A DNA stretch of 64,000 bases. Source: Liolophura sinensis (Eukaryota; Mollusca; Polyplacophora; Chitonida; Chitonidae). Below the pieces are notes generated by a model. It worked only from the letters and a program-made list of their open reading frames with translations, searched no databases and had not been told where the DNA came from. Shown here piece after piece: positions 40,524 through 64,000 of the stretch (position 1 is the first letter of the stretch; the number at the start of each line of letters is the position of its first letter). The stretch is taken from NCBI RefSeq assembly GCF_032854445.1, contig NC_088302.1, forward strand, positions 11,157,338 to 11,221,337. Reading direction: 5' to 3'. The translations under genes were made by a program, and so were the position numbers.

Positions 40524-41171
40524 CTAGTGGTACGTTTAGTTGATGATAGATGGGACAGAACTCTTCCACACATTCATGACTGTAATGATCATTCTGTATA
40601 ATAACTCCATCTTTTTTTTTTCTTTTTTTTTTTGATACAGTAGTTAGCATAGGTACTTCAGACTTGTTATGTCCAGAGACATCGTCATGATTTCTGAAAA
40701 CTTGTATTTCCTATGCTAACACTTTTAGCAATCATAGTATATGCTTTTATTTTGGTCGGCCTCCATCACATCACTTCCTGTCTCCACGGAAACTGTTGTT
40801 GGTCTCCTCCAGAACTGCATTAGCCTTCAGCAGCAGTTTAGAACGGGCCTCCCTCTAATCACGATTGCTAACCTAACACATCGGCATTGGTCTTTATACC
40901 GCTGTCGGTTTTCTCCAAGTCACAGTCTTGTCATTTCTATGCCACTATCGCTTTTCTCCAAATCACAATACTTATCTCTTGGTTATAGAAAGTTGCCTGC
41001 CCTTAGGTAAAAAAAATACTCACGTTTCTTATTAGGCATTGGTTTTATATTTAGTGCTGGTTTTAACATTTAAAATAAGCAATTAAAACTGTATCTGGAG
41101 AAAGTCGGCAAATCTGAGTGAATGCACGGAAAGTGTTACATTCAGGAAATGCACCAAACCCGAAGTGTAGA

Positions 41172-41335
41172 ATAATTTATTTGGTGTTTTACGCCGTACT
41201 CAAGAATATTCCACTTATACGACGGCTGCCAGCATTGTGGAGGGAGGAAACCGGGCAGAGCCCGGGGGAAACCCACGATTATCCGCACGTTGTTGCCAGA
41301 CCTTCCCTCGGACGGCTGGAGAGAAGTTCAAGATT
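41172..41335 (-). mobile_element. SINE family A, 3' two-thirds
   Basis: Minus-oriented: TTTATTTGGTGTTTTACGCC, GAGGGAGGAAACCGGGCAGA and GCCAGACCTTCCCTCGGACG. It lies just left of the first tandem unit. Confidence 0.9.
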
Positions 41336-42404
41336 AAATGATAACTGCTGGATGTAACAGGATCTAACAAATAACAAATGCAGCAACCGTTTTTGGCCTT
41401 TGCACAAATATAGATGCAATAAGATGTACCATCTGGAGAATCTGCGATTTCCTTTGAAGGTGGACCTTTCATAGCCTTTGCTATACATGGATGGTTTAAA
41501 GATAGCAGATCATCAATATACCGCTTAGTGAATTGGAAAAATCGGGCCTAATGAGGATTACTCCTTAATAGTTTCTGCATATACATGCATATGTCTTTAG
41601 TGTGTCTAGGCTATATCGAATACGACAATCTGAGCTGTTTGCCTTCAATAATGTAAATCTATGAGAAATGATACTATTAATGTTGTTTCAACGTATACGT
41701 ACCGTTTTATTATACCAATAACTGTTGTGATGTTTTAAACAGTGACTGTTAGATGGTGTGTTTATTTGAAAATGATGTGATTTTTGGTTCGAAGTTGCAA
41801 AAGTTCTGTGAGCGAGTTGAAGTATACTATGTTTATATATATGATGTGCAAATACATGTGGTAAGTTTTACTGACTTCATCGATGTTCTTGTAGAAACAC
41901 ATACAGTGATATTGTATTACTTCTTCCAATAGGCCAAGTTGGAAGACACAGTAAAGTTTAAATTTGTGCTATTACTGTCTGTTGTATTCCTTCATGGCAT
42001 GGCGTTTGTATAAATGGGGTAATTTTTAACAGTAGGATACGAAAGTAATACTCCTGACCCCTGCAAAATGCATCCATTTTATGTAAGTTTAAAGTCGCTT
42101 TCAAAATCAGTTTACAGTGGTATCTCCTTGTAACAGCCCGGTTATATATTTTCAGTGATTCATGGAGTCACAGTATACTGACAGTGGGTCAACTAGGAAG
42201 TAAGAATATTGTAGATTTTAAAGTGTTAGTGCTTAAAATCCCATTCATGACTTCCGAATCGAAGTTCAAACCTCGAAATATGTGCAATTCTAGAAAGCTT
42301 GTTACATTGACACTGATGGCCCATCCACAACACCAGTTCTGACGTAAGCGAACATTTGAAATGCGACATTGCAGCATATTTCAAATGTATAACAAGGACC
42401 ATCT

Positions 42405-42565
42405 CACTATGGTTTCCTCTCCGGTCAAACGTGGGAAGGTTTGTCAACATCCTGTGTGGATAGTGGTACGTTTCCCCGTGGCTCTATCCGGTTTCCTCAC
42501 AAGATAATGATGGTCGTGTGAAGTGAAATATTCTTGAGTACAGCGTAAATCACCAATCACATACA
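42405..42565 (+). mobile_element. SINE family A remnant at unit start
   Basis: CCTCTCCGGTCAAACGTGGG, then CCCCGTGGCTCTATCCGGTT, GAAATATTCTTGAGTACAGC and a degraded tail. Its counterparts lie at about 53325-53445 and 63530-63685, so it was part of the ancestral unit. Confidence 0.8.
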
Positions 42566-43229
42566 CAAATTTTTTACATCCAGTAACAACTGAACATTGT
42601 CAAGAGGCTTCAATTTTGAAAGAAATCTATATAGTAATCTCAGATTTCTCGTATTAATTATTAATTTTTCTTTTCTTTTTCTTTTGATTGTACCTTTTCA
42701 CATGTTTTCCAAAGTGGTAAGTTCTTTACCTTGACCTATCCATCACAAATTATTTGTTACCCTTTATGTTTTTATTCTTGCTGGATAAAACAGGAGTTTA
42801 GTCATTGTAATTTATTTAACTCTGTATACATTTATTTCACATTCATGCGTTAGCGTATAACCTTTACTTGCTTGATGTTTTGGTTCAAACATGTTTGTCT
42901 CCTGCTCTCCCTGAACCTTCCATGTAGGCCTGTATATTTGTCCATATATTAAGCAAAGTCCTAAGTAACGTTTGTAATTCTTAAGTTGGTCCCTATATCA
43001 AATAACCACACAGCATGTGGGCCTAATTCTACCTGTTATATACATTCATGAGAGCATTTCCTCACCAGCTATATAAAGTGCAAACAAATATTCTATTGAC
43101 TGTACTTCTTAACATATTTTTCATCCTGCTCATTCACAATGCCGTCAATCAATCAGCTGAACTCCTAAGCCAGTAAATCTCTCATCTTTTTTGCTATTTA
43201 ACCCTATTTTCGTGGTCTTGGAGTTAAAT

Positions 43230-43387
43230 TTCACCTTTCGGCTCGTCTCGGTAATATCCGTGACTAAAACGTCACAATGGTCTTCCTGTGTGACGTCAGA
43301 CCATTGTGTTCTGTTTATGACAACATCATGTCGTATGTTGACGTTCTTTACAGAGGACTAACTACACACGCGTGCTGATATAAAGTG
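43230..43387 (+). promoter_or_regulatory. Promoter/first-exon module 1, unit 1
   Basis: Contains ACGTCAC half-sites and a perfect CRE TGACGTCA at 43291-43298, then TGACGTTCTTTACAG and a donor (AAAGTG/GTAAGA, exon end 43387). It is similar in order and sequence to module 2 at 43700-43855. Likely an alternative promoter with a non-coding first exon. Confidence 0.55.
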
Positions 43388-43699
43388 GTAAGATTTTTAA
43401 CCCTGATCTGCGTTTCACAAGTTACTCAATATACATTTAGTCCACTTGCATAGCAAAAAGAATTCAGTTATTCCATTTCATTCAGTCCTGCTTCGGGTCA
43501 AACGTACTTTTCTTCTATTTCCATTGAACCTTTCCAATTTTTCACAAATAAAAGACAAGCCAGAGTTACTTTTGTAATTCGCCGGTTTCTCACTATGTCT
43601 AATAACCATTCATCCCTCTATCCTTGGCTGCATCATCCGCTCTTTAAGATTACTTCACACTCTCCCTGCTATCACTGAACCGCCATCAGTTCTTGTGTA

Positions 43700-43855
43700 C
43701 TCATACGTAAGTCTCTTCGGGCCTTGTCGTTAAACTCCGTGACTGTAGCGTCACGACCATTTCCGTGTGTGACGTCATTTCATTATTCGTTGTTTATGGC
43801 AACGTCACTTCGCATCCTGACGTCCTTCAAGTGACGAATTCGCTGTATCAAAGTG
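43700..43855 (+). promoter_or_regulatory. Promoter/first-exon module 2, unit 1
   Basis: Has CCGTGACTGTAGCGTCACGA, a perfect CRE TGACGTCA at 43770-43777, AACGTCAC and TGACGTCC, ending at donor AAAGTG/GTAAGT (exon end 43855), 150 bases before the coding exon. This is the more conserved of the two modules between units, so probably the main start. Confidence 0.6.
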
Positions 43856-44005
43856 GTAAGTATTATGACTGTGTATACAGTACTTCTCATCCTTAACATA
43901 CATGTTATTAATTTCCAAGTCCCAGTTCTAGTAATTGCACGATGTTATTTTTGCCGCGGATAAGGTTTAATCTTATAACACGATATGTGATGTTTTTATT
44001 TCCAG

Positions 44006-47000
44006 CTTTACCAAATGGCGGAATTAGAAGAGGGCGCAAAACCCAATGATGTAGGCGATCACGCCCAGTACAGCATATCTGAGGATGGTAAGTAAACGTT
44101 TTCGTTGCGAGGACCCTTTCATAACGGCCGTGCATTAATTGCGTCGCATTAAAGGTGTTTTCCTTTATTTGCTTGCACATAGTATCCTTATGAAACCCAT
44201 TTGTTAAATTATAAAGTTGCGTTTTTGAGGTACTTTACGGTTCTTTTTTTAAACTATTTCTCCTCCCATCACCACAGGGTCCAACATATGTATTGTTTTT
44301 GCCTTCACCCGCGTCCATTTGTTTAATCGCCCGTCATCTCGGCATATACAATTATCTACCATATCTTCATTCCTGTGTGCATGTATACTGTTTTGTCTTC
44401 CCCCATCCATTTGTTATATGGCTCCTCATCTGAAGATGTCCATTTATCTGCCATATCTTCATCCCTGCATGCATGAATATTGTTTTGCCTTCACCCGCCA
44501 ATCTATTTAATGGCTGTCCATCCCGACATGCCCAATTGTCTATCATGTCTACATCCGGTATATTCAGATTTGCTGGCAGAATATGAAGCTGAACCTTTGG
44601 AATACACTCCAATCTTCTCCATTGTTTGGTCTGGCCCTTACCTGGCAGCTCTGGGAGCATTCCCTGATATCTCAGACCGGTGCCTGGAGGCAAAGATCTG
44701 GAACCCCAAAGGGCTTCTGCCAACTTCCATCCTACGGCCAGAAGAGGCCAAACTGATGGAGGTAATGTTGATAAGACGATCTTCATTCGTATGCTGATCT
44801 TTCCTATTTTTTCTTGGCCTATAGATGTTTTCCGACAGAATTTCTATTGTTTTCTTCAAAATGATGAGCATGTAACCAGTTAGATTAAAGTAAAGCTGGG
44901 AGTTTTCATTCCACCCATACAGTAGACTATATGTTTGACTGGTTAACGGCTTTAGCTAAACACTGTAAATGACATGTTATAAATTATCCTTTCATAAAAT
45001 CTGCATATAGTCGTCTTGGGTAAACTCTCCAGTGCATATGTACTAGTGGCATTGTTTGGTATTTGTTTGCTCTTTTAGATGGAACCTTGGCTAAGGGAAC
45101 TTGTCTGCAGAATTCACCTGGTCGATCGTAAACCAGACGGCGGAACAAACAGTAAGTGGCTGACTTTATTATGTACAGAGAGATGTTAAGTCTCCAATAC
45201 TGATAATACCTATATACTTAGCTCATCTGTCCATCAATAGTTTATTAAATGGTTTTCCCTGTTAAGAAAGGTGCATTCCACGCCCTAAAGCTGCGTGTTG
45301 TTTACTTCAGCCTACTTCACCACGGTGTTTGCAAAGTTGCCAGAAACGGGTGACAAAATTGTGGAGCCCACAAGAGACGGACCCCGTGTAAGTACTACAC
45401 AGACAACTCACCATCTGGTTTACGATGTCTAGCACATTTGAAAAGAGACAACGATTTGATTACTCGAATGAAGATAACGACGAAACAGATCATAAATGTA
45501 ATTATGGCATAATTGAATATTTTGTGAAAAGAGTTCATTTCATAAATATTTTCCTGCAGACCTATATGCTGTTGTTCATGGATACATGGATATAACAGAA
45601 TTTGTCCGGTTTCCTCCCACCACAATGTTGGCCGCCGTTGTTTAAGTGAAATAGTACTGAGTAGGGCGGTAAAACACTGATGAAATTAATGAATAAATAA
45701 TAGACAGTTTTCATATTTACAGCCACTGATTGAAGCCAACAATATCCGAGTGGACTTTGACAAATGCCCCGTTGTTGACAGTAAGTTGTTTATTCGCAAA
45801 CCGTACAAGTTGAATCTGTTGCTGATTATTAGAGGTAACGTTTGTGCGTGTTGAAATTATGAGGATAATAATACGAATGTTATTTTGATGATGATGATAG
45901 TAATAATGAAAATATAACCTGACCACATCAGTTAATGACACCTTATGATGATAATGGCATGTAAATATTGGGGAAAACAACATTACAAATCAAGATGATA
46001 ATTTATAGTATCAAGAAATTATACGTTACGTTACAGTTTTCAGATTTTTAACTCTAAACCATTCAAGCATATCCATGGCTTCATTTTGCCTTCAAATTGT
46101 TAACGATGATTCCAGATCAAGTTGAGGTATTCTTTTGTAATTTAGCCACTGGTGTCCGGGGTCATGCAAGAGGACTTGTTTCAAAGGCCCTTCTGGAGAG
46201 GTTGGATGGGACGGAGCACTTTGGGGAACATAAGGTAGGTGCGCAAAACTGAAGTGACGTCGCTGAATATCTCCTCTTGTGTGTGACTGATATTATCAAC
46301 TTTCCTTGTCCTTATCTTCCGATTATGGCCATTTTCGTGTTGGGAAACTGCAATGATTCTTAGCTCTACTGGTATCCTAAATGTCCTGTCTAAAGATAGG
46401 CTGGAAGTTATATTGGATAAAAGATAACATATCTGACGTTTTTGGGTGTGCTGTACCTTTGCTGTACTTGACGTACAGATTTGACATAAAGCCTTTCCCT
46501 TGATTTCTGTTGAAGGTGGGTTCCTACAGAAGACCCCAGATCGAGTTCCACGTGTTCCCATCTACCCCGGGGTTTAAGGTCCCCGCTGATTTTCGGCCTC
46601 CACAACTCGATGGTATCAATGGTAAGTCTGAGCTTTACTGTATGTCTTTTTATCCACGTGAATGTTTTTTAATCTTCATCAGTTCTCCATATTTCGCACA
46701 AATACAATTGTCACTTTTATATTGTTATTTTATACTGCTGTGGAGATATGTCATCTATTATAAAGCCTGCTAAATAATACAAGATGTATTTATTGATTTA
46801 TTTTGTTTGATTTGTGTTTTACGTTGTGCTCAAGAATATTTCACTTATACGACGGCGGTCAGCGTTATGGTGGAAAGAAACCGAGCAGAGCCCGTGCCAA
46901 ACCCACCACCATCCGCAGGATGTTGGCAGACCTTCCCACGAATTGATAAGCCATTCTCATGTCTACAAATATCTACGGTCAAACGGTCAGGGTAGATAAA

Positions 47001-48174
47001 GCGTACAGAAACTAGTTATAAATGCCGTTTAATTAAGTGTGATAGTGTTTGCTGAACGTAAGTGTAAAGGTTTATCTGCGATCTTAATAGTTCTACCTGT
47101 ATCAGTAACAATGAACAAGTCAGTATTTCAGTCATTTCGTGCATTTTGTATCACTCATATAACCGAAATATGTTTTTGTCAGCTGCCTGTGTGGATGCCC
47201 TTAAGGACATCATATTCGATACTGCTAAGGCCCTGGAACGAAAACTCCGAAGCGCCAATGATTCATCAAGGCCTTCCAGGTCTTTACAACGCCGGGGCAA
47301 ACCGAAAAGACTTGCTGAGAAAGAAGGGCGTCCAGACAAACGGCCCGATGAACGGCCTGCTCGTGACAGACTGGTGTTTAGCAGCCAAATCAATGTAATA
47401 CCCAGTGATGACGAAGATACCATAAATTCTCGTCCAGATGGTGATTTATTTACCAAGGTGGGTATAAAATGGAGAACAAAAACAAATTAATAATAATAAT
47501 CATACTAATAATAGTAAAATACATATGGGAAACGACGTTAAAAAAGAAGTGCGCATCAGTATAAAAACATTAAAAACTGTATCTTCAAATGAATGCTTCT
47601 TTTTATGTTTTGAAAAATTGGAATTGAAAGCCGGTAAATGCTTGGGTCGTGCGGTTAACCATATTGGCAATATACGTCACTAACGTCAGACCATTGAGGT
47701 CATATCTACATGTTTATGCTGTTACCGTTTTGTTTTCCCTTTAGATTGCTCCAGTAGATGACTGCGAGCCTGTCAGCAGTGCTGCCCAACTGTATGACAT
47801 TGCCGTAAAACTTTCTGACACCGAATCCGCTGACAATGGACTTGAGAGCAACAAAGCCCTTACACCAGACGTTTCCTTCACTGATGCCGACAAAGCCAGT
47901 AAGTAGAGTAGCCCTGAAGCAAGCTAAGGCTGATTTCTCCAAGCCAGTTTTGGGTTAAGATAAAACTTGAAATTATATCAGAAGATTAAATTGTTGTCTC
48001 TGAGTCACTGGTTGGACAGGATTCACCGAGGAAAAAAAAGCACGAATCGTTCATTTCGTTTATTTATTGTTTTTGACAGAACCAGCCAAGAAGTCCTTCG
48101 GAAAAAGAATTCACTCCTTCCTGGGCAGATTGTTCTGCTGCGTCCCAAAGCACGGGCGCAAGTACTTGGATTAA
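44006..48174 (+). CDS. Tandem-array gene, copy 1: unknown 397-aa protein
   Basis: Coding exons: 44015-44087, 44568-44761, 45079-45151, 45311-45387, 45723-45780, 46146-46234, 46516-46621, 47183-47457, 47745-47898 and 48080-48174 (TAA 48172-48174). All introns are GT-AG and all phases agree, giving 398 codons with no internal stop. Protein: acidic N-terminus MAELEEGAKPND; a globular-looking part with VWSGPYLAALGAFPDIS, EPWLRELVCRIHLVD, TGVRGHARGLVSKALLERL and RPQIEFHVFPSTPGFKVP; a basic stretch RRGKPKRLAEKEGRPDKRPD that could be a nuclear signal; an acidic SDDED; and a tail SFGKRIHSFLGRLFCCVPKH with a Cys pair that could be palmitoylated. No signal peptide or membrane helix. I recognise no family. 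Confidence 0.88.
44293..44567. repeat. Intron-1 tandem repeat, about 92-96 bp x 3, unit 1
   Basis: Copies start at TGTTTT near 44293, 44389 and 44481. Each has TTCRCCC or TTCCCCC, a CATTTGTT-like block, a CATCT/CATCC segment and CATATCTTCAT. The third copy runs straight into the exon-2 splice acceptor, so its sequence provides the branch point and pyrimidine tract. The counterpart in unit 2 is at about 54930-55208. Confidence 0.8.
45603..45702 (+). mobile_element. SINE family A, 3' end in intron 4, unit 1
   Basis: TCCGGTTTCCTCCCACCACA, ATGTTGGCCGCCGTTGTTTA and tail AAAACACTGATGAAATTAAT. Present at the same place in unit 2 (56156-56252), so inserted before duplication. Confidence 0.88.
46790..46945 (-). 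mobile_element. SINE family A, 3' part in intron 7, unit 1
   Basis: Minus-oriented TTGATTTGTGTTTTACGTTG, CTCAAGAATATTTCACTTAT, ATCCGCAGGATGTTGGCAGA. Shared with unit 2 (57350-57505). Confidence 0.9.
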
Positions 48175-48659
48175 TAAGTTAAGGAACTGAGGGGGTTGGG
48201 GGTAGGGTGTGGGGCGGGTTGGGTCTGTAGATGGGAGTTAGCTTGGATTGTAAAACTATCGGGATCTGATTGGGGATTTTAGTTTTTATCACTGATTTTA
48301 AAGTTTTTTAATATCTGAAATGAAATAAGTCATTCAGTCGAATGCAAATATGTATATACCTGAATGTGTAAATAGTCCATAGATTCTCGCGTGATTCATC
48401 GCAGCTCTTTTCTTAAAATTCTAAAATGTTTTAATTTTTATGTATATTTTTATATATACATATACATATAACTACCGATATCTTGTTGTGACTATACATA
48501 TATACCACGTCAACATGTGCTACCCTTGGTTTGTTGTCAGCTTTCAATCCAAGACCTGAGATTTCTTTTTTCCATTAATTGTTGTGTCATTTAAGAATAC
48601 CCTTAGCATTACTGTCACTTTACAAATGTCAAGTCACATAATTTTTATAAGTGCAGTAA

Positions 48660-48665
48660 AATAAA
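48660..48665 (+). terminator. Poly(A) signal AATAAA, copy 1
   Basis: Canonical hexamer 486 bases after the stop codon, inside GTAAAATAAATATT, followed by a TGTGCTTT stretch. Identical context in copy 2. Confidence 0.5.
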
Positions 48666-48783
48666 TATTTGTACCAAGGAATGAAAACTGTGCTTTAACA
48701 CATCAGTAATGACACCAATGGCAAGTGAAGTAACTATGTGACCGTTATAAGTAATCCCAGCAGAACTCAAGAAGGTTAGTATC

Positions 48784-49146
48784 TATGTGAATGTTGACGA
48801 AAATAGTTCCAACTACAGTTAAGGGAAATATCTTTGTTAATATTAAGTTGGAAAAGTTGCGAATTCAGTAAGAAAAGTGACAGTGTAAATGCTGAGGAAA
48901 ACAGTCCCGGTTGAAGAAAGAAATGCTGCTCTGTGAATGTTAAGGGAAAAAAATTTGCAAATACAGGAAGGCAAATGGCTGTGTGAATATTGAGCAAAGC
49001 CGTCCCAGTTGTTGAAAGAAATGTCGGTTTGTGAATGTTAAGGGAAAATAGTGACAAATCCAGAAAGGAAAGTGGCTGTGAGAATCTTGAAGAAAACAGT
49101 TGCAGCTGTAGAACAGAAAGTAGCTTGGTGAACGCTACAGGAAACA
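48784..49146. repeat. 49-bp minisatellite, about 8 copies, unit 1
   Basis: A TGTGAATGTT-like start recurs at 48786, 48835, 48884, 48932, 48982, 49030, 49079 and about 49128, spacing 48-50. Copies alternate between two sub-types (a CAGTCCC/GTTGAAGAAAG form and an AATTTGCAAATACAGGAAGG form), hinting at a 98-bp higher-order unit. The open minus-strand frame across it is a by-product. Confidence 0.88.
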
Positions 49147-49429
49147 TTTACAACGGCACTAAGGAATGTATATATCCTATTAGAGCCGTCAAGATATAGT
49201 TCATGGTGTCTAATATTTACATATATATGTTTCTTTATGGCTTCTTGTGTGGATCAGTGTCACGAGGAGAGTAAATTCGTGTATGAGCACGTATCTGGTA
49301 ACTGCGCATGCTCCTAGTAGTCTCTCAAATGATTTCTTGGTTGTTCATGTCTGTGTCTGTATATCTCACAATCTGAACACGCCGGTTTTTGTGTTATGCT
49401 GATGTGGTGGTTTATCTCTTCACGCAGGA

Positions 49430-50010
49430 AGTGGTCTATGTCTGGTGATCTCGTATAACGTGATTTATGTCGGTGATCCGGTATAAAGTCTCAAGTGATA
49501 TTCTGATATGAGAGGTGGTTTGTTTCTGGTAATGGACTCATCGGGTAGTTTATTTCTGGTGATCTCATATAAAGTGGTTTATGTCTGGTGATCTCGTATG
49601 AAGTGGCGTATGTCTGGTTATTTTCTCATGTAAAGTGGCTTACACGTATGTCCAGTGACCTCATTTAAAGTGTTTTATGTCTGGTGATCTCATATAAAGT
49701 GGTTTATGTCTGGTGATCTCATATAAAGTGGTTTATGTCTGGTGATCTCATTAAAGTGGCTTATGTCTGATTATTTTCTCATGTAAAGATGCTTACACGT
49801 ATGTCCAGTGACCTCATTTAAAGTGTTTTATGTCTGGTGATCTCATATAAAGTGGTTTATGTCTGGTGATCTCATATAAAGTGGTTTATGTCTGGTGATC
49901 TTCTCATGTAAAGTGGTTTACACGTATATCCGGTGATCTCGTATGAAGTGGTTTATGTCTGGTGATCTCGTATGAAGTGGTGTATGTCTTGAGATCTCGT
50001 ATGAAGTGCT
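49430..50010. repeat. 29-bp minisatellite, unit 1
   Basis: Repeats of AGTGGTTTATGTCTGGTGAT plus CTCATATAA, mixed with variants CTCGTATGA and TTCTCATGTAA and a longer TTACACGTATGTCC insert that itself recurs. The unit 2 array is shorter by roughly 150 bases. Confidence 0.9.
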
Positions 50011-51424
50011 CTTTGTGTTTTAGGCATATGATGCAGCCTTTTGTGGTATATTAAGTCTACATTGTATGTTATCAGATCTGTATAAGAGCAAAAGTCATGG
50101 CCTAACGATGATTAGGCCTACACTTCGTCAATGTTGGAATTGTACCACGGTGACAGAGTAGTACTTTTATCGTCGTATTAACACGTGTGTGTCATATACA
50201 AATACATGTTGTTGTTTTTTTTTAATATTAGTTTTTATTTGTTACTTAAGTTTGCACATGTTGGCGCTGTAGGGTTAGGTAAAGTGATTATCTATCTGAA
50301 CACGCGTATGTCAGGATTTCAGTGTCTTCTATCTAGTATAGCGCTTTGCTGGTAATGTGCTTTCATGTGTACTGGGATTTGTACACTTTATCAAAGGATT
50401 TTATATTTTGTTTTTGTGTATCATTGGAGGCGGAAGTGATGGGTCTGGGACATAGTATTGATGGGCTTATTCATGAGTCAATGTACACTAGAGTGTGTGT
50501 GACAAAGCAGCTGCAGGTGTCTTTCTTTGCATGGATAACAGGAGGCTGAGGTATGGCGGTACATTCACATAGTTACTTCCCTTGCCACATGTCCAGAAAC
50601 CGAGTATTCTACAAACCAAACGTACGGTATATGATATAGCAGATGCATACAAATCCGGAATTATCCAAACCAACTGTAACAATGTATATGGCACATTATA
50701 TTACTTGTGTACAAGCCAGCTAATATCCAGATCAAAACTGTTGTATGTTATGCATAATAGTACATACATACAAGCCAAGTTATATTGAAACCAGAGGTAA
50801 TGTATTTGTCACACAATACTACACCTTTGCAAACCAAATATTATCCGATCCAAAAGTAAAGGTTCTGATACAGAAATGCACAACCATCAGTATTGTATAT
50901 GCTAAGTAATACCGCATATATACATGCGCTTTTAAAAACATCATTAAAATCTCTTGACTACTTTCCTTGGTCATAATATTTTGTTTTAATGTGTGTTAAG
51001 ATTTCTTAGTAGAAACTTTCTTGCCTTGTCATCTTTCTTTTTTTCTTGTTTTTGCCATGCCCATGGAAATTGTTTTCGGTTAAACAAAATCTGTATATTT
51101 CTGGTAACTTTGTCATTATTTTTTTTACAATCTGCAATGTCTGACAAGCCAGGGGTTAGAACCGACATTATTTTACCACTCTCTGTTATAGGGTTTACAA
51201 ATAAAGTAACCGCATGAAATAGCAGGATTTAAACCCAATATATGTTACACTATTTAACAACAAGCCAAATTATTATATCTGTATACAAACTGTATTTGAC
51301 GTGTATGTAATGGACGACAATAAAATTACAATAAATGAAAACCGTTTCGTAGTTTTCTTTCTGTAGAAAGTTTGTATGGTTACTTTACCGCGTTAATATA
51401 AGTTCTTTTAAACCTTCTAAAACC

Positions 51425-51550
51425 GGGCTGGGACAGGTGGAAGATCTGTAAGGTTTCCTCTTATTCCACAAGGTGCAAATGGAGTCCTAATCAGGATTGG
51501 ACCAACGACCATCCGCAGATTGCTGACAGACCTTACGGGAAGGTAGTTCA
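51425..51550 (-). mobile_element. SINE family A, degraded, unit 1
   Basis: ACGACCATCCGCAGATTGCT and GACAGACCTTACGGGAAGG match the family body on the minus strand. Duplicate at 61787-61912. Confidence 0.6.
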
Positions 51551-53324: not shown

Positions 53325-53445
53325 TCCTCTCTGGTCAAACGTGGGAAGGTTTGTCAACATCCTCTGTGGATCGTAGTACGTTTCCCCACGGCTCTGTCCG
53401 GTTTCCTCCCAACTTAACGTAAAGTTAATGTATCACATACATAAA
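53325..53445 (+). mobile_element. SINE family A remnant, unit 2 start
   Basis: CCTCTCTGGTCAAACGTGGG, CCCCACGGCTCTGTCCGGTT, then a tail shorter than in unit 1 and unit 3. Confidence 0.75.
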
Positions 53446-53844
53446 TTTTTTCACATCCAGTAACAACTGAGCATTGTCAAGAGGCTTCAATTTTGAAAGT
53501 AATCTATATACTGATCTCAGAAATCAGATTTCTCATATTAATTGTTTCGGGGTATCGCTTTTCTTTTTCTTTTTCTTTTTTTTTTTTTTGGCAGGGGGAG
53601 GACGGAGGAATGGGTAGATTAATTGCTTTGACGAAGGGTCGGATCCGAAGCCCCTGTACGTGATATAGATGAAGTTTGGGGGAGAAGTGAGAAACAACCA
53701 ATCAAATGAATAAAACACCAATCAAAGTCCATTTATATTGCTAATCTGAACAACTTTGGTAACGTACATGTAATTCTGCCTGTTATGTACATTCATGAGA
53801 GCTACTCAAATTACAAACAAGTCTTTTATTGACTGTACTTTTCA

Positions 53845-53958
53845 GGTCGCCTGGTTAATTTCCGTGTTTCAAACGTCATATCGGTCTCTGTGTTCGTCAT
53901 GTCTTATGTTGACGTTCTTTACAGACGGCTCGCTACACATGCGTGCCAATAAAAAGTG
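53845..53958 (+). promoter_or_regulatory. Promoter/first-exon module 1, unit 2 (CRE lost)
   Basis: Counterpart of 43230-43387. An internal deletion and substitutions (TCTCTGTGTTCGTCATGTC) remove the palindromic CRE. The donor reads AAAGTG/GTAGGA (exon end 53958), weaker than the GTAAGA of unit 1. This module may be inactive. Confidence 0.5.
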
Positions 53959-54339
53959 GTAGGATTTTTAACCCTGACCTGCGCTTCACAAGTTACTCAA
54001 TATATATTTATTCCACTTGCATAGCAAAAAGAGTTCAGTCATTCCGTTTCATTCAGTCCTGGTATATATTCATGTGACACTGATGCCTTAGTATATGCCT
54101 GTAAGCTTTACTTACATGATGTTTCGGGTCAAACGTACTTTTCTTCTATTTCCATTGAACCTTTCCAATTTTTCACAAATAAAAGACAAGCCAGAGTATT
54201 TTTTGTAATTCTCCAGTTTGCCAATATGTCTATGTAACCATTCACCCATCTATCCTTGGCTGCATCGTACGCTCTTCAAGATTAACTTCACACTCTCCCT
54301 GCTATCACTGAACCGCCATCAGTTCTTGTGTACTCATAC

Positions 54340-54488
54340 GTAAGTCTCTTCGGGCCTTGTCGTTAAACTCCGTGACTGTAACGTCACGACCATTTCCGTG
54401 TGTGACGTCATTTCATTATTCGTTGTTTATGGCAACGTCACTTCGAATATTGACGTCCTTCAAGTGACGAATTCGTTGCATCAAAGTG
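54340..54488 (+). promoter_or_regulatory. Promoter/first-exon module 2, unit 2
   Basis: Near-identical to module 2 of unit 1: CCGTGACTGTAACGTCACGA, CRE TGACGTCA at 54403-54410, AACGTCAC, TGACGTCC, and donor AAAGTG/GTAAGT (exon end 54488). Confidence 0.6.
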
Positions 54489-54639
54489 GTAAGTGTAATA
54501 ACTGTGTGTAGAGTACTTCTCATCCTAAACATAAATGTTATTAATTTCCAAGTCCCAGTTCTAGTAATTGCACGATGTTATTTTTGCCGGCGTTAAGTTT
54601 TAATCCTATTACACGATATGTGATGTTTTTTATTTCCAG

Positions 54640-57600
54640 GTTTATCAAATGGCGGAATTAGACAAGGGCACAAAGCCCGATGATGTAGGCGATCACGCCC
54701 AGTACAGCAAATCTGAGGATGGTAAGTAACCGTTTTCGTTGCGAGAACCCTTTCATAAAATAGCCATGTATTAATTGCGTCGCATTTAAGGTGTTTTCCT
54801 TCATTTGCTTGCATATTCTTGTGTATTCTTGTGAAACCCATTTGTTAAATTATAAAGTTGCGTTTTTGATGTACTTTACGGTCCATTTTTTTAACTGCTT
54901 CTCATCCCATCACCACAGGGTCCAACACATGTATGTTTTTTTGTTTTCACCCGCGTCCATTTGATTAATGGCCCCTCATCTCGGCATATCCAATTATCTA
55001 CCATGTCTTCATTCCTGTGTGCACGTATACTGTTTTGTCTTCCCCCATCCATTTGTTATATGGCTCCTCATCTGAAGATGTCCATTTATCTGCCATATCT
55101 TCATCTCTGCATGCATGTATATTGTTTTGCCTTCACCCGTCCATCTATTTATTTTTGCCCATCCCGACATGCCCAATTCACTGTCATGTCTAAATCCGCT
55201 ATATTCAGATTTGCTAGCGGAATACGAAGCTGAACCTTTGGGATACACTCCAATCTTCACCACTGTTTGGTCTGGCCCTTACCTGGCAGCTCTGGGAGCA
55301 TTCCCTGATATCTCAGACCTTTCCCTGGAGGCCAAGATCTGGAACCCCAAAGGGCTTCTGCCAACTTCCGTCCTACGGCCGGAAGAGGCCAAACTGATGG
55401 AGGTAATTTTGATAAGGCGATCTTTATTGGTATACTGCGCTTTCCCATTTTTTTTGTTGGCCTATAAATGTTTTCCGATAGAATTTCTATTGTTTCTACG
55501 GCTTTAGCCAAACAGTGTAAATGACATGTTATAAGTTATCCTTTCATAAAATCTGTATATAGTCCTCTTGGGTAAACTCTCCAGCGCATATGTACTAGTG
55601 GCATTGTTTGGTATTTGTTTGCTCTTTTAGGTGGAACCTTGGCTAAGGGAACTTGTCTGCAGAATTCACTTAGTCGATCGAAAACCAGACGGCGGAACAT
55701 ACAGTAAGTGGCTGACTTTATTATGTTCAGAGAGATGTTAAGTCTCCAATACTCATAATACCTATATACTTAGCTCATCTGTCCATCAATAGTTTAGTAC
55801 ATGATTTTCCCTGTTAAGAAAGGTGCATTCCACGCCCTAAAGCTGCGTGTTGTTTACTTCAGCCTACTTCACCACGGTGTTTGCGAAGTTGCCAGAAACG
55901 GGTGACAAAATTGTGGAGCCCACAAGAGACGGACCCCGTGTAAGTACTACACAGACAACTCACCATCTGGTTTACGATGTCTAACACATTTGAAAAGAGA
56001 CAATGATTTGATTACTCGAATGAAGATAACGACGAAACAGAGCATGAATGTAATTATTGCACAATTGAGTATTTTGTGAAATGAGTTCATTTCATAAATA
56101 TTTTTCTGCAGACCTATATGCTGTTGTTTATGGATGCATTGATATAACAGAGTTTGCCCGGTTTCCTCCCACCACAATGTTGGCCGCCATTGTTTAAGTG
56201 AAATAGTACTGAGTAGGGCGTTAAACACTGATGAAATTAATGAATAAATAATAGACAGTTTTCATATTTACAGCCACTGATTGAAGCCAACAATATCCGA
56301 GTGGACTTTGAGAAATGCCCCATTGTTGACAGTAAGTTGTTTATTCGCAAACCGTACAAGTTGAATCTGTTGCTGATTATTAGAGGTAACGTTCGTGCGT
56401 GTTGAAATTATTAGGATAATAATACGAAAGTTATTTTGATGATGATGATGGTAATAATGAAAATATAAGCTGACCACATCAGTTAATGACACCTAATGAT
56501 GATAATGGCATGTAAATATTGGGGAAAACAACATTACAAATCAAGATGATAATTTATAGTATCAAGAAATTATACGTTACGTTACAGATTTTTAACTCTA
56601 AACCATTCAAGCATGTCCATGGCTTCATTTTGCCTTCAAATTGTTAACGATGATTCCAGATCAAGTTGAGGTATTCTTTTGTAATTTAGCCACTGGTGTC
56701 CGGGGTCATGCCAGAGGACTTGTTTCAAAGGCCCTTCTGGAGAGGTTGGATGGGACGGAGCACTTTGGGGAACATAAGGTAGGTGCGCAAAACTGAAGTG
56801 ACGTCGCTGAATATCTCCTCTTGTGTGTGACTGATATTATCAACTTTCCTTGTCCTTATCTTCCGATTATGGCCATTTTCGTGTTGGGAAACTGCAATGA
56901 TTCTTAGCTCTACTGGTATACTAAATGTCCTGTCTAAAGATAGGCTGGAAGTTATATTGGATAAAAGATAACATATCTGACGTTTTTGGATGTGCTGTGC
57001 CTTTGCTGTAGCTTTGCTGTACTTGACGTACAGATTTGACATAAAGCCTTTCCCTTGATTTCTGTTGAAGGTGGGTTCCTACAGAAGACCCCAGATCGAG
57101 TTCCACGTGTTCCCATCTACCCTGGGGTTTAAAGTCCCCGCTGATTTTCTGCCTCCACAACTCGATGGTATCAATGGTAAGTCTGAGCTTTACTGTATGT
57201 CTTTTTATCCATGTGAATGTTTTTTAATCTTCATCAGTTCTCCATATTTCGCACAAATACAATTGTCACTTTTATATTGTTATTTTATACTGCTGTGCAG
57301 ATATGTCATCTATTATAAAGCCTGCTAAATAATACAAGATGTATTTTTTTATTTATTTTGTTTGATTTGTGTTTTACGTTGTGCTCAAGAATATTTCACT
57401 TATACGACGGCGGTCAGCGTTATGGCGGAAAGAAACCGAGCAGAGCCCGTGCCAAACCCACCACCATCCGCAGGATGTTGGCAGACCTTCCCACCAATTG
57501 ATAAGCCATTCTCATGTCTACAAATATCTACGGTCAAACGGTCAGGGTACATAAAGCGTACAGAAACTAGTTGTAAATGCCGTTCAATTAAGTATGATAG

Positions 57601-58740
57601 TGTTTGCTGAACGTAAGTGTAAAGGTTTATCTGCGATCTTAATAGTTCTACCTGTATCAGTAACAATGAACAAGTCAGTATTTCAGTCATTTCGTGCATT
57701 TTGTATCACTCATATAACCGAAATATGTTTTTGTCAGCTGCCTGTGTGGATGCCCTTAAGGACATCATATTCGATACTGCTAAGGCCCTGGAACGAAAAC
57801 TCCGAAGCGCCAATGATTCATCAAGGCCTTCCAGGTCTTTACAACGCCGGGGCAAACCGAAAAGACTTGCTGAGAAAGAAGGGCGTCCAGACAAACGGCC
57901 CGATGAACGGCCTGCTCGTGACAGACTGGTGTTTAGCAGCCAAATCAATGTAATACCCAGTGATGACGAAGATACCATAAATTCTCGTCCAGATGGTGAT
58001 TTATTTACCAAGGTGGGTATAAAATGGAGAACAAAAACAAATTAATAATAATAATCATACTAATAATAGTAAAATACATATGGGAAACGACGTTAAATAT
58101 GAAGTACGCATCAGTGTAAAAAACATTAAAAACTGTATCTTTAAATGAATGCTTCTTTTTATGTTTTGAAAAATTGGAATTGAAAGCTGGTAAATGCTTG
58201 GGTCGTGCGGTTAACCATATTGGTAATATACGTCACTAACGTCAGATCATTGAGGTCATATCTACATGTTAATGCTGTTACCGTTTTGTTTTCCCTCTGT
58301 TTTAATATAGATTGCTCCAGTAGATGACTGCGAGCCTGTCAGCAGTGCTGCCCAACTGCATGACATTGTCGCAAAACTTTCTGACACCGAATCCGCTGAC
58401 ACTGGACTTGAGAGCAACAAAGCCGTTACACCAGACGTTTCCTTCACTGATGCCGACAAAGCCAGTAAGTAGAGTAGCCCTGAAGCAAGCTAAGGCTGAT
58501 TTCTCCAAGCCAGTTTTGGGTTAAAATAAAACTTGAAATTATATCAGAAGATTAAATTGTTGTCTCTGAGTCACTGGTTGGACAGGATTCACCGAGGAAA
58601 AAAAAGCACGAATCGTTCATTTCGTTTATTTATTGTTTTTGACAGAACCAGCCAAGAAGTCCTTCGGCAAAAGAATTCACTCCTTCCTGGGCAGATTGTT
58701 CTGCTGCGTCCCAAAGCACGGGCGCAAGTACTTGGATTAA
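54640..58740 (+). CDS. Tandem-array gene, copy 2: unknown 397-aa protein
   Basis: Coding exons: 54649-54721, 55209-55402, 55631-55703, 55863-55939, 56274-56331, 56690-56778, 57071-57176, 57738-58012, 58311-58464 and 58646-58740 (TAA 58738-58740). Every exon has the same length and phase as in copy 1, with no stop or frameshift, so both look functional. By eye the proteins differ at about 22 residues: five in exon 1 (such as Glu/Lys, Ile/Lys), six in exon 2, two each in exons 3, 5 and 7, five in exon 9, none in exon 8 or 10. Intron 8 ends with a short extra CTGTTTTAATATAG-like acceptor region. Family unknown; see copy 1 for the protein layout. Confidence 0.88.
54930..55208. repeat. Intron-1 tandem repeat x 3, unit 2
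   Basis: Same three-copy block as in unit 1, again running up to the exon-2 acceptor. Confidence 0.8.
56156..56252 (+). mobile_element. SINE family A, 3' end in intron 4, unit 2
   Basis: Same insertion as 45603-45702. Confidence 0.88.
57350..57505 (-). mobile_element. SINE family A, 3' part in intron 7, unit 2
   Basis: Same insertion as 46790-46945. Confidence 0.9.
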
Positions 58741-59224
58741 TAAGTTAAGGAACTGAGGGGGTTGGGGGTAGGGTGTGGGGCGGGTTGGGTCTGTAGATGG
58801 GAGTTAGCTGGGATTGTAAACTATCGGGATCTGATTGGGGATTTTAGTTTTTATCACTGATTTTAAAGTTTTTTGATATCTGAAATGAAATAAGTCATTC
58901 AGTCGAATGCAAATATGTATATACCTGAATGTGTAAATAGTCCATAGATTCTCGCGTGATTCATCGCAGCTCTTTTCTTAAAATTCTAAAATGTTTTAAT
59001 TTTTATGTATATTTTTATATATACATATACATATAACTACCGATATCTTGTTGTGACTATACATATATACCACGTCAACATGTGCTACCCTTGGTTTGTT
59101 GTCAGCTTTCAATCCAAGACCTGAGATTTCTTTTTTCCATTAATTGTTGTGTCATTTAAGAATACCCTTAGCATTACTGTCACTTTACAAATGTCAAGTC
59201 ACATAATTTTTATAAGTGCAGTAA

Positions 59225-59230
59225 AATAAA
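59225..59230 (+). terminator. Poly(A) signal AATAAA, copy 2
   Basis: Same position relative to the stop codon as in copy 1 (485 versus 486 bases). Confidence 0.5.
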
Positions 59231-59344
59231 TATTTGTACCAAGGAATGAAAACTATGCTTTAACACATCAGTAATGACACCAATGGCAAGTGAAGTAACT
59301 ATGTGACCGTTAGAAATAATCCCTTCAGAACTCAAGAAGGTTAG

Positions 59345-59705
59345 TATCTATGTGAATGTTGACGAAAATAGTTCCAACTACAGTTAAGGGAAATATCTTT
59401 GTTAATATTAAGGGGGGAAAGTTGCGAATTCAGTAAGAAAAGTGACAGTGTAAATGCTGAGGAAAACAGTCCTGCTTGAAGAAAGAAATGTTGCTCTGTG
59501 AATGTTAGGGGGAAAAATTTGTAAATACAGGAAGGCAAATGGCTGTGTGAATATTGAGCAAAGCCGTCCCAGTTGTTGAAAGAAATGTCGGTTTGTGAAT
59601 GTTAAGGGAAAATAGTGACAAATCCAGAAAGGAAAGTGGCTGTGAGAATCTTGAAGAAAACAGTTGCAGCTGTAGAACAGAAAGTAGCTTGGTGAACGCT
59701 ACAGG
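59345..59705. repeat. 49-bp minisatellite, unit 2
   Basis: Counterpart of 48784-49146 with the same copy order and a few substitutions. Confidence 0.85.
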
Positions 59706-59992
59706 AAACATTTACAACGGCACTAAGGAATGTATATATCCTATTAGAGCCGTCAAGATATAGTTCATGGTGTCTAATATTTACATATATATGTTTCTTT
59801 ATGGCTTCTTGTGTGGATCAGTGTCATGGGGAGAGTAAATTCGTGTATGAGCACGTATCTGGTAACTGCGCATGCTCCTAGTGGTCTCTCTAATGGTTTC
59901 TTGGTTGTTCATGTCTGTGTCTGTATATCTCACAATCTGAACACGCCGGTTTTTGTGTTATGCTGATGTGGTGGTTTATCTCTTCACGCAGG

Positions 59993-60425
59993 AAGTGGTC
60001 TATGTCTGGTGATCTCGTATAACGTGAATTATGTCGGTGATCCGGTATAAAGTCTCAAGTGATATTCTAGTATGAGAGGTGGTTTGTTTCTGGTAATGGA
60101 CTCATCGGGTAGTTTATTTCTGGTGATCTCACATAAAGTGGTTTATGTCTGGTGATCTCGTATGAAGTGGCTTATGTCTGATTATTTTCTCATGTAAAGT
60201 GGCTTACACGTATGTTCGGTGACCTCATTTAAAGTGTTTTATGTCTGGTGATCTCACATAAAGTGGTTTATGTCTGGTGATCTCATATACAGTGGTTTAT
60301 GTCTGGTGATCTCATATAAAGTGGTTTATGTCTGGTGATCTTCTCATGTAAAGTGGTTTACACGTATGTCCGGTGATCTTGTTTGAAGTGGTGAATGTCT
60401 TGTGATCTCGTATGAAGTGCTCTTT
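59993..60425. repeat. 29-bp minisatellite, unit 2
   Basis: Same motifs as 49430-50010 but with fewer copies; one of the two long ACACGTATGTCC-containing blocks is missing. Confidence 0.88.
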
Positions 60426-61786
60426 GTGTTTTAGGCATATGATGCAGTCTTTTGTGGTATATTAAGTCTACATTGTATGTTATCAGATCTGTTGGAATGT
60501 TGGAATTTTACCACGGTGACAGAGTATTACTTTTATCGTCGTATTAACACGTGTGTGTCATATACAAATACATGTTGTTTTTTTTTTTAAATATTAGTTT
60601 TTATTTGTTACTTAAGTTTGCATATGTTGGCGCTGTAGGGTTAGGTAAAGTGATTATCTATCTGAACAAGCGTATGTCAGGATTTCAGTGTCTTCTATCT
60701 AGTATAGCGTTTTGCTGGTGATGTGTCTTCATGTGTACTGGGATTTGTACACTTTATCAAAGGATTTTAGATTTTGTTTTTGTGTATCATTGGAGGCGGA
60801 AGTGATGAGGATGGGACGTAGTATTGATGGGCTTATTCATGAGTCAGTGTACACTGGAGTGTGTGTGACAAAGCAGTTGCAGGTGCCTTTCTTTGCATGG
60901 ATAACAGGAGGCTGAGGTATGGCGGTACATTCACATAGTTACTTCCCTTGCCACATGTCCAGAAACCGAGTATTCTACAAACCAAACGTACAGTATATGA
61001 TATAGCAGATGCATACAAATCCGAAATTATCCAAACCAACTGTAACAATGTATATGGCACATTATATTACTTGTGTACAAGCCAGCTAATATCCAGATCA
61101 AAACTGTTGTATGTTATGCATAATAGTACATACATACAAGCCAAGTAATATCGAAACCAGAGGTAATGTATTTGTCACACAATACTACACCTTTGCAAAC
61201 CAAATGTTATCCGATCCAAAAGTAAAGGTTCTGATACAGAAATGCACAACCATCAGTGTTGTATATGCTAAGTAATACCACATATATACATGCTCTTTTA
61301 AAAACATCATTAAAATCTCTTGACTACTTTCCTTGGTCATAATATTTTGTTTTAAGGTGTGTTAAGATTTCTTAGTAGAAACTTTCTTGCCTTGTCATCT
61401 TTCTTTTTTTCTTGTTTTTGCCATGCCCATGAAAATTGTTTTCGGTTAAACAAAATCTGTATATTTCTGGTAACTTTATCATTTTTTTTTTACAATCTGC
61501 AATGTCTGACAAGCCAGGGGCTAGAACCGACATTATTTTACCACTCTCTGTTATAGGGTCTACAAATAAAGTAACCGTATGAAATAGCAGGATTTAAACC
61601 CAATATATGTTACACTTTTTAACAAGCCAAATTATTATATCTGTATACAAACTGTATTTGACGTGTATGTAATGGACGACAATAAAATTACAATAAATCA
61701 AAACCGTTTCGTAGTTTTCTTTCTGTAGGAAGTTTGTATGGTTACTTAATAGCGTTGATGTAAGCTCTTCCAAACCTTCTAAAACC

Positions 61787-61912
61787 GGGCTGGGACAGGT
61801 GGAAGATCTGTAAGGTTTCCTCTTATTCCACAAGATGCAAATGGAGTCCGAATCAGGATTGGACCAACGACCATCCGCAGATTGCTGACAGACCTTACGG
61901 GAAGGTAGTTCA
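61787..61912 (-). mobile_element. SINE family A, degraded, unit 2
   Basis: Counterpart of 51425-51550. Confidence 0.6.
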
Positions 61913-62740
61913 AGGATGCGCTGCTTTTGGATGGGTATATTGACTATGATAGTGTCCCGTTATCATGTGTGTCCTGGAAACACTTGATCTCCATGACGAC
62001 ATTGATAATACTTCTGCAACTGTACTGTTTTGTATTGCTTAAGTGTATTATTGCTTAAACTGCACCAATATACACTGAGCAAGATAAACGGCTCGCGGCA
62101 TTCATAAACGGATGCATCAGTGTTAAAAGACAATATCAGGAGTCCATATTTATTTTGATTGTGATCTTCACGGAGCTGTAGACGTCAATTGATCAATACG
62201 TATACCTACATGTATACCTGGGACTGATTCAACAAAGCCAATTTTGACTGCTTATACATAAAACTTGCGCTGCTCCCTCTGCAAAGATTCTAACTCGAAC
62301 GTCTTTGATTTGTTCAACATTTGAAGTAATTTCTGTGTATATTCTTTATAAATTGTCAGATTAATCTTGAAATTTTCGATTTGAATTTGGTGGATACTGA
62401 TTTTTCATTTGTTCATGAGTAGTGTATTTCATTGTCCAATATAATTACATGTAAGTACGTAAGTATAGTATGGTACGTACCTAACACGTGTTTTGGTTGG
62501 ATGATTTCTACATGTTAAATAAGCATAGTAGAATATCTAATATGTTTTTGGCGCGTTTGTTGGATGTCTAACACATTCCGTTTATTAAGATGATAGTTCT
62601 AGCGATTTAATGGATGCTATTGAAAACAAAAGATTAAGTTATCTGCATGATATATGCATAAGCACACATGTATATTTATATGCATGTTTCTATAGGAGTT
62701 TTGACAACCTGAGGCTAGTATCGCTAGATGGTATGTATTC

Positions 62741-64000
62741 ATGTATGTGTCTGTACTGCTTCTAGGCTATATGGAATACGACAATCTCAACTGTCTGCCT
62801 TCAATACATTTAAATCTGTGAGAAATGATACTCTTAACGTGGTATCACCGTATACGTAACGTTTTATTATACCAGTAACTCTTATGATGTTTGAGACAGT
62901 AACTGTTAGATGGTGTGTTAAGTTGGAAATGATGTGGCCTTTTGTCTAAAGCTGCAAAGGTTCTGTAAGCGAGTTGAAACATGCGATGTTTATGTATATG
63001 ATGTGCAAATACATGTGGTAATTTTGATTGATTTCATCTATGTTCTTGTAGAAACACATACAGTGATATTGTGTTACTTGTTCGTATAAGCAATGTTGGA
63101 AGACTTTGGCACAAAAAAGTTTACATTTGTGCTGTTACTGTCCGTTGTTTTCATTTATGGCATGGCGTTTGTATAAATGGGGTAATTTTACTGGAAGGAT
63201 ACGAAACTAATATGCCTGTCTTTTGCAAAATGCATCCTTTTTATGTAAGTTTTAAGTCGCTTTCAAAGTCAATTCACAGTGGTATCTCCTTGTAACAGCC
63301 CGGTCATGTATTTTCAGGGCTGCATGGAGTCACAGTATACTGACAGTGGGTTAACTAGAACCTTGTCTGTCCTCCAATATATACAGAGCATCTATCCAAG
63401 GAAGTACGAATATTGTGGATTTTAAAGTGTTAGTGCTTAAAATAGTTTGACTACCTCATGAATGTTATCTTAAGAGAAATGTGCCAAAAATTCCACTCTA
63501 TCATTGCGATATCGGAAAGTTGGTCAATCTCACCTTGGTTTCCTCTCCGGTCAAACGTGGGAAGGTTTGTCAACATTCTGTGTGGATCGTAGTACTTTTC
63601 TCCGTGCCTCTGTCAGGTTTCCTCCCAACTTAACGTAAAGTTAAATATTATTGAGTGGGAGGCAAAACACCAATCACATACAAAATTTGTTTTCATATCC
63701 AGTAGCAACTGAGCATTGTCCAGAGGCTTAAATTTTGAAAGTAATCTATATACTGATCTCAAAAATCAGATTTCTCATATTAATTTCGTATTTCGTCGGT
63801 GTATCGGTTTTCATTGTTTTTTTTCTTGGCAGCCGGAGGAGGGAGGAAGGGGTAGATTAATTGCTTTGACGAAGGGTCGGATCAGAAGCCCCTGTACGTG
63901 ATATAGATGAAGTTTGGGGGAGAAGTGAGAAACAACCAATCAAATGAACAAAACACCAATCAAATATGCAAATAGGTTCATTTATAATGCCAATCTCAAC
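62741..64000 (+). repeat. Tandem array unit 3, cut by the window edge
   Basis: Follows unit 2 and repeats its first 1.3 kb: the GGCTATATGGAATACGACAA block, GCAATGTTGGAAGACTTTGG, CCTCTCCGGTCAAACGTGGG and GACGAAGGGTCGGATCAGAA. At the edge it corresponds to about 53,740 in unit 2, so promoter module 2 and the first coding exon of a third gene would be expected 0.6-1 kb beyond. Confidence 0.9.
63530..63685 (+). mobile_element. SINE family A remnant, unit 3 start
   Basis: CCTCTCCGGTCAAACGTGGG, then AATATTATTGAGTGGGAGGC and AAAACACCAATCACATAC. It keeps more of the tail than the unit 2 copy. Confidence 0.75.

Follow-up and report, generated by a model that had tools for sequence, protein, structure and literature searches.

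The stretch of DNA analysed here, called the window throughout, covers 64,000 nucleotides of a contig of the chiton Liolophura sinensis (G000:C8:11157338-11221337), and the genome searched around it comprises 609,464,459 bases in 632 contigs. The mitochondrial contig has a chiton-like order of genes, as judged against Katharina. A correction to the genome paper (PMC11068029) changed the species name from Liolophura japonica to Liolophura sinensis. Its right-hand part carries a head-to-tail array of a ten-exon gene, and short cassettes built round a palindromic cyclic AMP (cAMP) response element (CRE) lie upstream of the copies. Self-BLAST of the window matches 41580-42198 to 52352-52976 and to 62736-63358, which places the unit starts at 41580, 52352 and 62736 and gives periods of 10.77 and 10.38 kb:

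41580..52351, + strand: repeat unit 1 (10.77 kb), by self-BLAST
52352..62735, + strand: repeat unit 2 (10.38 kb), by self-BLAST
62736..64000, + strand: repeat unit 3, start only, by self-BLAST and spliced alignment; its coding start lies past the window, at extended coordinate 65016

The self-comparison bears out the sequence-only reading of this DNA, which had described a head-to-tail array of two full units and the start of a third, running past the window. Extension to the right found the gene of the third unit beyond the window and open. No fourth unit was found at the array, where genome searches with exon 2 and exon 6 give three copies, and the array is free of gaps, with an N count of 0 in the window and the next 20 kb.

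Within the window, 44946-49854 and 55498-60419 share 96.8% identity. Over the ~8.3 kb aligned between all units, identity is 96.7% for units 1 and 2, 90.6% for units 1 and 3, and 91.4% for units 2 and 3, and the overall divergence between array units amounts to 3.3%, 8.7% and 9.5%. Read in 400-bp steps, the divergence is mosaic and ranges from 0 to 19%: units 1 and 2 are 91-100% identical per step, while unit 3 matches both of them at 90-99% up to ~47.46 kb (exon 8) and at 81-92% from there on. Uneven, mosaic divergence is a trace of gene conversion or unequal exchange between paralogs; joined alleles would be closer and more even. It is nearly certain that this is a real tandem array with the anatomy of genes and units given here.

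Two kinds of minor repeat lie in and near the units. Pieces of a dispersed repeat resembling a short interspersed nuclear element (SINE) occur at 46785-46943 and 45601-45700 and, by eye, at 38775-39131 (- strand) and 41118-41357. The SINE-like piece in intron 7 is present in units 1 and 2, and ~100 bp of it are missing from unit 3, close to the point at which unit 3 becomes less similar to the other two. The 3' part of each unit contains a 29-bp tandem repeat (GTTTATGTCTGGTGATCTCATATAAAGTG), whose higher-order period is ~125-154 bp (49548-50008 and 60112-60419 in the window).

The unit 1 gene has ten coding exons and encodes 397 residues; all of its introns are GT-AG, with phases 1,0,1,0,1,0,1,0,1. 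By spliced alignment, the genes of units 2 and 3 are open as well, at 397 residues each and with the same exon lengths and phases, so the intact gene with matching exons that had been read from two copies holds in all three. Both peptide motifs singled out by that reading are in place, with STLGF in unit 2 instead of STPGF.

44015..44087, + strand: unit 1 coding exon 1
44568..44761, + strand: unit 1 coding exon 2 (WSGPYLAALGAFPDIS)
45079..45151, + strand: unit 1 coding exon 3
45311..45387, + strand: unit 1 coding exon 4
45723..45780, + strand: unit 1 coding exon 5
46146..46234, + strand: unit 1 coding exon 6 (GVRGHARGLVSKALLERLDGT, highly conserved)
46516..46621, + strand: unit 1 coding exon 7 (RPQIEFHVFPSTPGF)
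47183..47457, + strand: unit 1 coding exon 8, a helix and then a tail modelled as coil
47368..47400, + strand: RVxF-x5-PhiPhi motif RLVFSSQINVI, residues 286-296, in unit 1 exon 8
47745..47898, + strand: unit 1 coding exon 9
48080..48174, + strand: unit 1 coding exon 10, stop included, with a basic amphipathic tail ending RLFCCVPKHGRKYLD
54649..58740, + strand: unit 2 gene, ten coding exons, stop included, by spliced alignment
54649-54721, 55209-55402, 55631-55703, 55863-55939, 56274-56331, + strand: unit 2 exons 1-5
56690-56778, 57071-57176, 57738-58012, 58311-58464, 58646-58740, + strand: unit 2 exons 6-10

The array belongs to a family of 11 loci on four contigs. Searched with exon 2, the genome gave 16 candidates, of which 11 matched at E ≤ 0.001; a search with exon 6 recovered the same 11 loci. 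Contig C8 holds the three array genes, L002, L003 and L004 within 0.43 Mb, L007 at 17.3 Mb and L005 at 22.4 Mb; L006 lies on C6, L008 on C1 and L009 on C9. Thus, the local amplification that had been proposed stands as far as the three-copy array goes, and it is not purely local, as the array is part of this wider family. Identity to unit 1 runs from 94% down to 30%. All nine genes modelled share the phases of introns 1-7, and the array genes agree with L002 and L003 in all nine phases; the automatic models of L006-L008 break up the exon 9 region, and L005 departs in the last phase. As assembled, L004 is broken: exons 2 and 4 carry one-base indels, and exon 5 is short of one codon. The L004 locus (G000:C8:10945200-10955199) also holds 200 N, and this copy is either a pseudogene or an assembly error. 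L009 is the most divergent member, in which homologues of exons 2, 3, 6 and 8 and of the tail were found.

Two decayed relics, on C1 and C4, were missed by both exon searches. The relic L019 (G000:C4:1177500-1185499), revealed by its CRE cassette, retains decayed pieces of exons 4-7 with a stop. The relic L018 (G000:C1:19706500-19714499) is a truncated duplicate that matches unit 1 at 86% identity over 573 bp and keeps a cassette and the first 15 codons of exon 1, with no further exon found there.

Between the array genes and L002/L003, the ratio of nonsynonymous to synonymous divergence (dN/dS) is 0.14-0.19 in exons 1-7, the most constrained part of the gene, and 0.38-0.66 in exons 8-10. Comparing the array genes with one another gives higher ratios, 0.26-0.55 in exons 1-7, and whole-gene values among the array genes, L002 and L003 are 0.23-0.62. 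The sole ratio above 1 (1.5; units 1 and 2, exons 8-10) rests on six changes. Synonymous divergence (dS) between unit 1 and L005-L007 reaches 1.1-1.3, close to saturation, and for L008 it exceeds what the formula can give. The tree places the array genes with L002, L003 and L004 in one clade (100/100), inside which the forks are weak. Altogether, these values indicate that the family is old and constrained and that the array is a recent, local three-copy expansion inside this chiton family, under purifying selection. A partial genome duplication has been reported in this species, and the part of that report available to us does not mention the family (PMC12005716).

None of the libraries searched assigns this gene to a family. 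Pfam was queried with the whole unit 1 protein, with five window pieces (three holding exons 2, 6 and 7, two being out-of-frame reading frames), with six members, and with the family consensus and pieces of it. Neither Pfam, NCBIfam and PHROGs (six members each in the latter two) nor the PDB sequences gave a credible match to the family, in agreement with the description of the gene as unrecognised. The best PDB E-values are chance-like (0.73 for the family profile, 0.82 for a single-member stretch, 1.6 for the consensus), as are the best Pfam values (E 0.15 for an out-of-frame piece; E 0.21 to PF01530 in one of six members). Pfam reported no ankyrin repeats and no recognised secreted or receptor domain in the unit 1 protein. 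Plasmid records, queried with exon 2 and its flanks only, held no relative; viral contigs gave 32 pattern matches, and bacterial and archaeal genomes 26, none of them confirmed. In the window, no Rfam family, iron-response elements included, reached its gathering score, and no tRNA gene was found. A full-text search of the literature found none of four family peptide words.

The SPATA6 N-terminal domain (PF14909) was suspected from a few similar words, and two intron phases can be matched by eye. It gave no Pfam hit and was rejected: a profile comparison of the family (hhalign E 0.11) did no better than the upper shuffles, 19 of 300 being as good, in what is a weak test with only two sequences on the SPATA6 side. 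A genome search with PF14909 returned none of the family loci and placed the chiton's own SPATA6 on C7.

Upstream, the genes share a cassette of ~90 bp that combines a palindromic CRE (TGACGTCA) with words like those of SOX and FOX sites and, in most copies, a splice donor. It occurs in one to eight copies before ten of the 11 family genes, each of which has at least one perfect TGACGTCA. The core reads CGTCA, ~20 bp, TGACGTCA, nnnn, ATTGT, nnn, TTGTTTAT, gaCAACGTCA, and a further TGACGTC often follows; in the middle of the core stands a perfect CRE flanked by half sites. ATTGT and TGTTTAT are similar to SOX and FOX sites. The copies in the window, with the acceptor interval discussed below, are:

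43266..43348, + strand: CRE cassette, unit 1 outer; TGACGTCA at 43291, GTAAG donor at 43388
43742..43828, + strand: CRE cassette, unit 1 inner; TGACGTCA at 43770, GTAAG donor at 43856
54375..54461, + strand: CRE cassette, unit 2; TGACGTCA at 54403, GTAAG donor at 54489
44006..44014, + strand: 9 nt between the conserved acceptor (AG 44004-44005) and the unit 1 ATG

The cassette marks its family across the genome. A pattern of 34 places, allowed up to 3 mismatches and run over 609 Mb, has 25 matches, with 0 for the reversed control. Upstream of family genes lie 23 of them (unit 1, 2; unit 2, 1; unit 3, 1; L002, 2; L003, 2; L005, 4; L006, 2; L007, 7; L008, 2), and the other two stand beside the relics on C1 and C4. 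The L004 cassette has one base less in the spacer and so escapes the strict pattern. A profile built from 11 copies and run over 18 sources (204,602 bases) returned 29 rows, which are 28 distinct copies because a locus boundary splits one; three are in the window. Units 1, 2 and 3 have 2, 1 and 1 of them, L002 2, L003 2, L004 1, L005 5, L006 2, L007 8 (one partial), L008 2, and the relics 2. The profile found none elsewhere in the window and none in L009, L012, L013 or the control locus L016. Across 26 copies, cassettes are 479-1571 bp apart and 223-5941 bp from the ATG. When the 1.3 kb before unit 1 is compared with the upstream DNA of L005, L007 and L008, alignment at E 1e-4 is limited to stretches of ~50-270 bp round two CRE sites; L006 had too little upstream DNA for this comparison.

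Copy number varies within the array too: unit 2 (53837-53897) is without the CRE core of the outer cassette, its match to unit 1 stopping at 43291 and resuming at 43326. At the other extreme, eight tandem cassettes ~0.5-0.95 kb apart, the outermost partial, precede the single gene of L007 (L021 and L007, C8:17316500-17330599), and more may follow outside the retrieved sequence.

In 23 of 26 copies the CRE is followed, at 73-99 bp, by a GTAAG or GTGAG donor, as are 4.9% of 20,000 control positions; the distance range was chosen after viewing the copies, and these are themselves related. By alignment, 22 of the 26 copies have such a donor at a common site; the one of L007 at 5440 is off it, and the donor of the unit 3 cassette is GCAAG. 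On the receiving side, a YAG acceptor stands 9-15 nt before the ATG in all ten genes (16.9% of control positions), so an upstream exon is to be expected, and each cassette supplies one. We therefore regard the cassettes as probably alternative CRE promoters with first exons. Two other roles were considered and not adopted. For a structured RNA, covariation is absent, with two-sided change in one of 13 pairs; for coding sequence, where amino-acid similarity had first been seen, none of the three frames stays open throughout the set of 26 (0, 18 and 6 copies open through the 72 bp).

According to PMC10454534, TGACGTCA is the consensus bound by CREM and CREB, and as in CREB/CREM promoters the palindrome with flanking half sites lies upstream of the chiton genes. 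The chiton CRE differs in being set in a longer, fixed SOX-/FOX-like grammar, usually with a donor, in a cassette repeated one to eight times whose pattern occurs only beside the family or its relics. Our literature searches touching on the cassette found no published account of it. In UGT1A and the protocadherin clusters, alternative first exons lie in tandem and are each joined to one common exon; the arrangement proposed here is similar in its several upstream first exons and one shared downstream acceptor. The putative chiton first exons, in contrast, appear non-coding, so that the protein would be unchanged while its dose or responsiveness may vary. We infer from the cassettes a cAMP-type control, which would fit reproduction or signalling better than defence; germ-line use, suggested by the CRE alone, is conceivable and leans towards the doubtful.

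The protein itself lacks a hydrophobic, signal-like N terminus and any transmembrane-like stretch in ten members (highest 19-residue hydropathy 1.23). Folded alone and without an alignment, exon 8 is modelled as a helix over residues 2-26, with a predicted local distance difference test score (pLDDT) of 96-97 for the first 20 residues, and as coil from residue 31 (block means pLDDT 51-65). In this modelled coil, R/K-[LV]-x-F-x5-[VLI]-I occupies one alignment position in all ten aligned rows, inside the faster-evolving C-terminal half. We used the pattern [K/R]-x(0-1)-[V/I/L]-x-[F/W], x not proline, with PhiPhi 5-8 residues C-terminal, following the RVxF definition and usual PhiPhi spacing in PMC10731240. 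When 353 gap-free columns were shuffled, RVxF with PhiPhi at a spacing of 5-8 appeared in all rows in 27 of 20,000 trials. This makes RVxF-x5-PhiPhi a putative docking site for protein phosphatase 1 (PP1), a tentative assignment to which we give somewhat less than even odds. The C-terminal tail has a cysteine in 11 of 11 members, as a Cys pair in ten and as FSC in L006; the L009 tail is assigned from a tblastn match of E 0.002. It is basic and amphipathic, with an 11-mer hydrophobic moment of 0.52-0.76 in the six members tested, and the odds are about level that it anchors the protein, perhaps by a lipid, to a membrane.

RVxF-PhiPhi interactors of PP1 include GADD34/PPP1R15. PNUTS and spinophilin are others, described in PMC10731240 as RIPPOs, PP1-interacting proteins with an RVxF-PhiPhi motif. 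The chiton protein resembles the RIPPOs in its [KR][VL]xF with a PhiPhi pair five residues on, in the modelled coil and in the acidic residues that follow; it differs in having no sequence match to solved structures and in having mostly L for V. Members of the PPP1R16 family (MYPT3, TIMAP) are PP1 subunits that target membranes and whose C terminus is lipidated, and the chiton protein likewise joins a PP1 motif to a tail that looks like a C-terminal membrane anchor. Unlike them, it has no ankyrin repeats by Pfam and no CaaX box, its motif lies C-terminal to the conserved domain, and its tail has an internal Cys-Cys.

Putting these parts together, we propose that expression of ten of the eleven genes would start in tandem cassettes, one to eight per gene, each a promoter and first exon with a palindromic CRE. 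Transcripts from any cassette would splice from its own donor to a single acceptor, common to all of them and 9-15 nt upstream of the ATG, so every cassette would give the same protein. The protein has a conserved N-terminal domain that belongs to no recognised family (exons 2-7 with the exon 8 helix), a linker with RVxF-x5-PhiPhi and, at the C terminus, a basic amphipathic helix containing cysteine. It would act inside the cell, recruiting PP1 to the membrane where cAMP/CREB-family activity is high, perhaps in germ cells, and there opposing protein kinase A (PKA) signalling. For the whole chain, a cAMP-driven, membrane-tethered PP1 adaptor with the cell type left open, our probability is roughly 0.35.

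Several observations weigh against it. No cassette lies in the 10 kb read around L009, and the CRE word is not rare, four of the seven TGACGTCA in the window being far from family genes. One frame is open in 18 of the 26 cassette copies, which leaves some room for a coding role, and conversion, in place of selection, could have kept the copies alike. RVxF alone appeared in all rows in 340 of 20,000 shuffles, the rows are related, and RVxF-like words are common. The second motif residue is L and not V in eight of ten rows, L009 lacks the motif (its model is uncertain there), and the composition-based disorder score at the motif is moderate, at 0.06-0.19. With such a score and such common words, the membrane-tethered PP1 adaptor is put forward here as a hypothesis.

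The alternative that survives best keeps the cassettes as promoters with first exons and makes the protein a cell-type-specific structural or adaptor protein, of germ cells or others, that does not act via PP1, its RVxF being incidental or binding another partner. The CRE is a CREM/CREB site on this account too (PMC10454534), constraint is strongest on exons 1-7, for which no partner is known, and RVxF words are frequent; against these stands the retention of RVxF-x5-PhiPhi in all ten aligned rows inside the faster-evolving C-terminal half. We consider this account a serious possibility that still falls well below even odds.

It is less easy to read the cassette as a conserved enhancer or silencer array, or as a passive satellite carried along with gene duplication. 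Copy number and spacing do vary (479-1571 bp), as does the distance before the ATG (223-5941 bp). However, paralogs whose synonymous sites are close to or past saturation still share a recognisable CRE block, and outside it the 1.3 kb before unit 1 gives no match to L005, L007 or L008 at E 1e-4; donors follow most copies at a nearly fixed distance, and a passive satellite would not be expected solely beside one family (25 of 25 matches). Such a non-promoter role is unlikely.

A family for defence or environmental response, the role that the sequence-only reading had offered for a locally amplified gene, is more improbable still. Local amplification and mosaic, conversion-like divergence would suit it, but whole-gene dN/dS of 0.23-0.62 (array genes, L002, L003) gives no sign of diversifying selection, the single ratio above 1 comes down to six changes, ten members show no signal-like N terminus, and Pfam recognises no secreted or receptor domain in the unit 1 protein. 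Finally, the risk raised at the outset that allelic copies were wrongly placed in tandem by the assembly is barely credible: high-fidelity (HiFi) reads with a mean of 8.3 kb, shorter than the unit, and a coverage of 14x make the number of units less secure, but the mosaic divergence of 3.3-9.5% exceeds the published heterozygosity of 1.24% (read data and heterozygosity from PMC11068029), the array is without a gap, and dispersed paralogs carry the same gene.

Uncharacterised, locally amplified families are common; a short regulatory cassette that marks its own family across 609 Mb is less so. It offers a testable handle on when and where the family genes are used, and two of its 25 matches exposed decayed copies. 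If cassette number sets expression, the genome would contain a natural dose-response series, from one to eight promoters, and the PP1 motif makes a biochemical role directly testable. Returning to the cAMP-driven, membrane-bound PP1 adaptor, one could go further and see the private, copy-number-variable promoter cassette, multiplied separately in each paralog (one to eight), as an adjustable gain control upon it, a feedback device evolving by promoter amplification and not by coding change. This is speculative, and we think it unlikely as it stands.

Elsewhere in the window, 18756-19121 and 27799-29616 hold frames that resemble the YEATS domain and the C-terminal part of AF9/ENL (MLLT), and by eye 36694-37446 is a 250-residue leucine-rich-repeat reading frame. 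On another contig (G000:C99), seven COX1 copies follow one another ~15.5 kb apart, probably mitochondrial genomes assembled head to tail as an assembly artefact.

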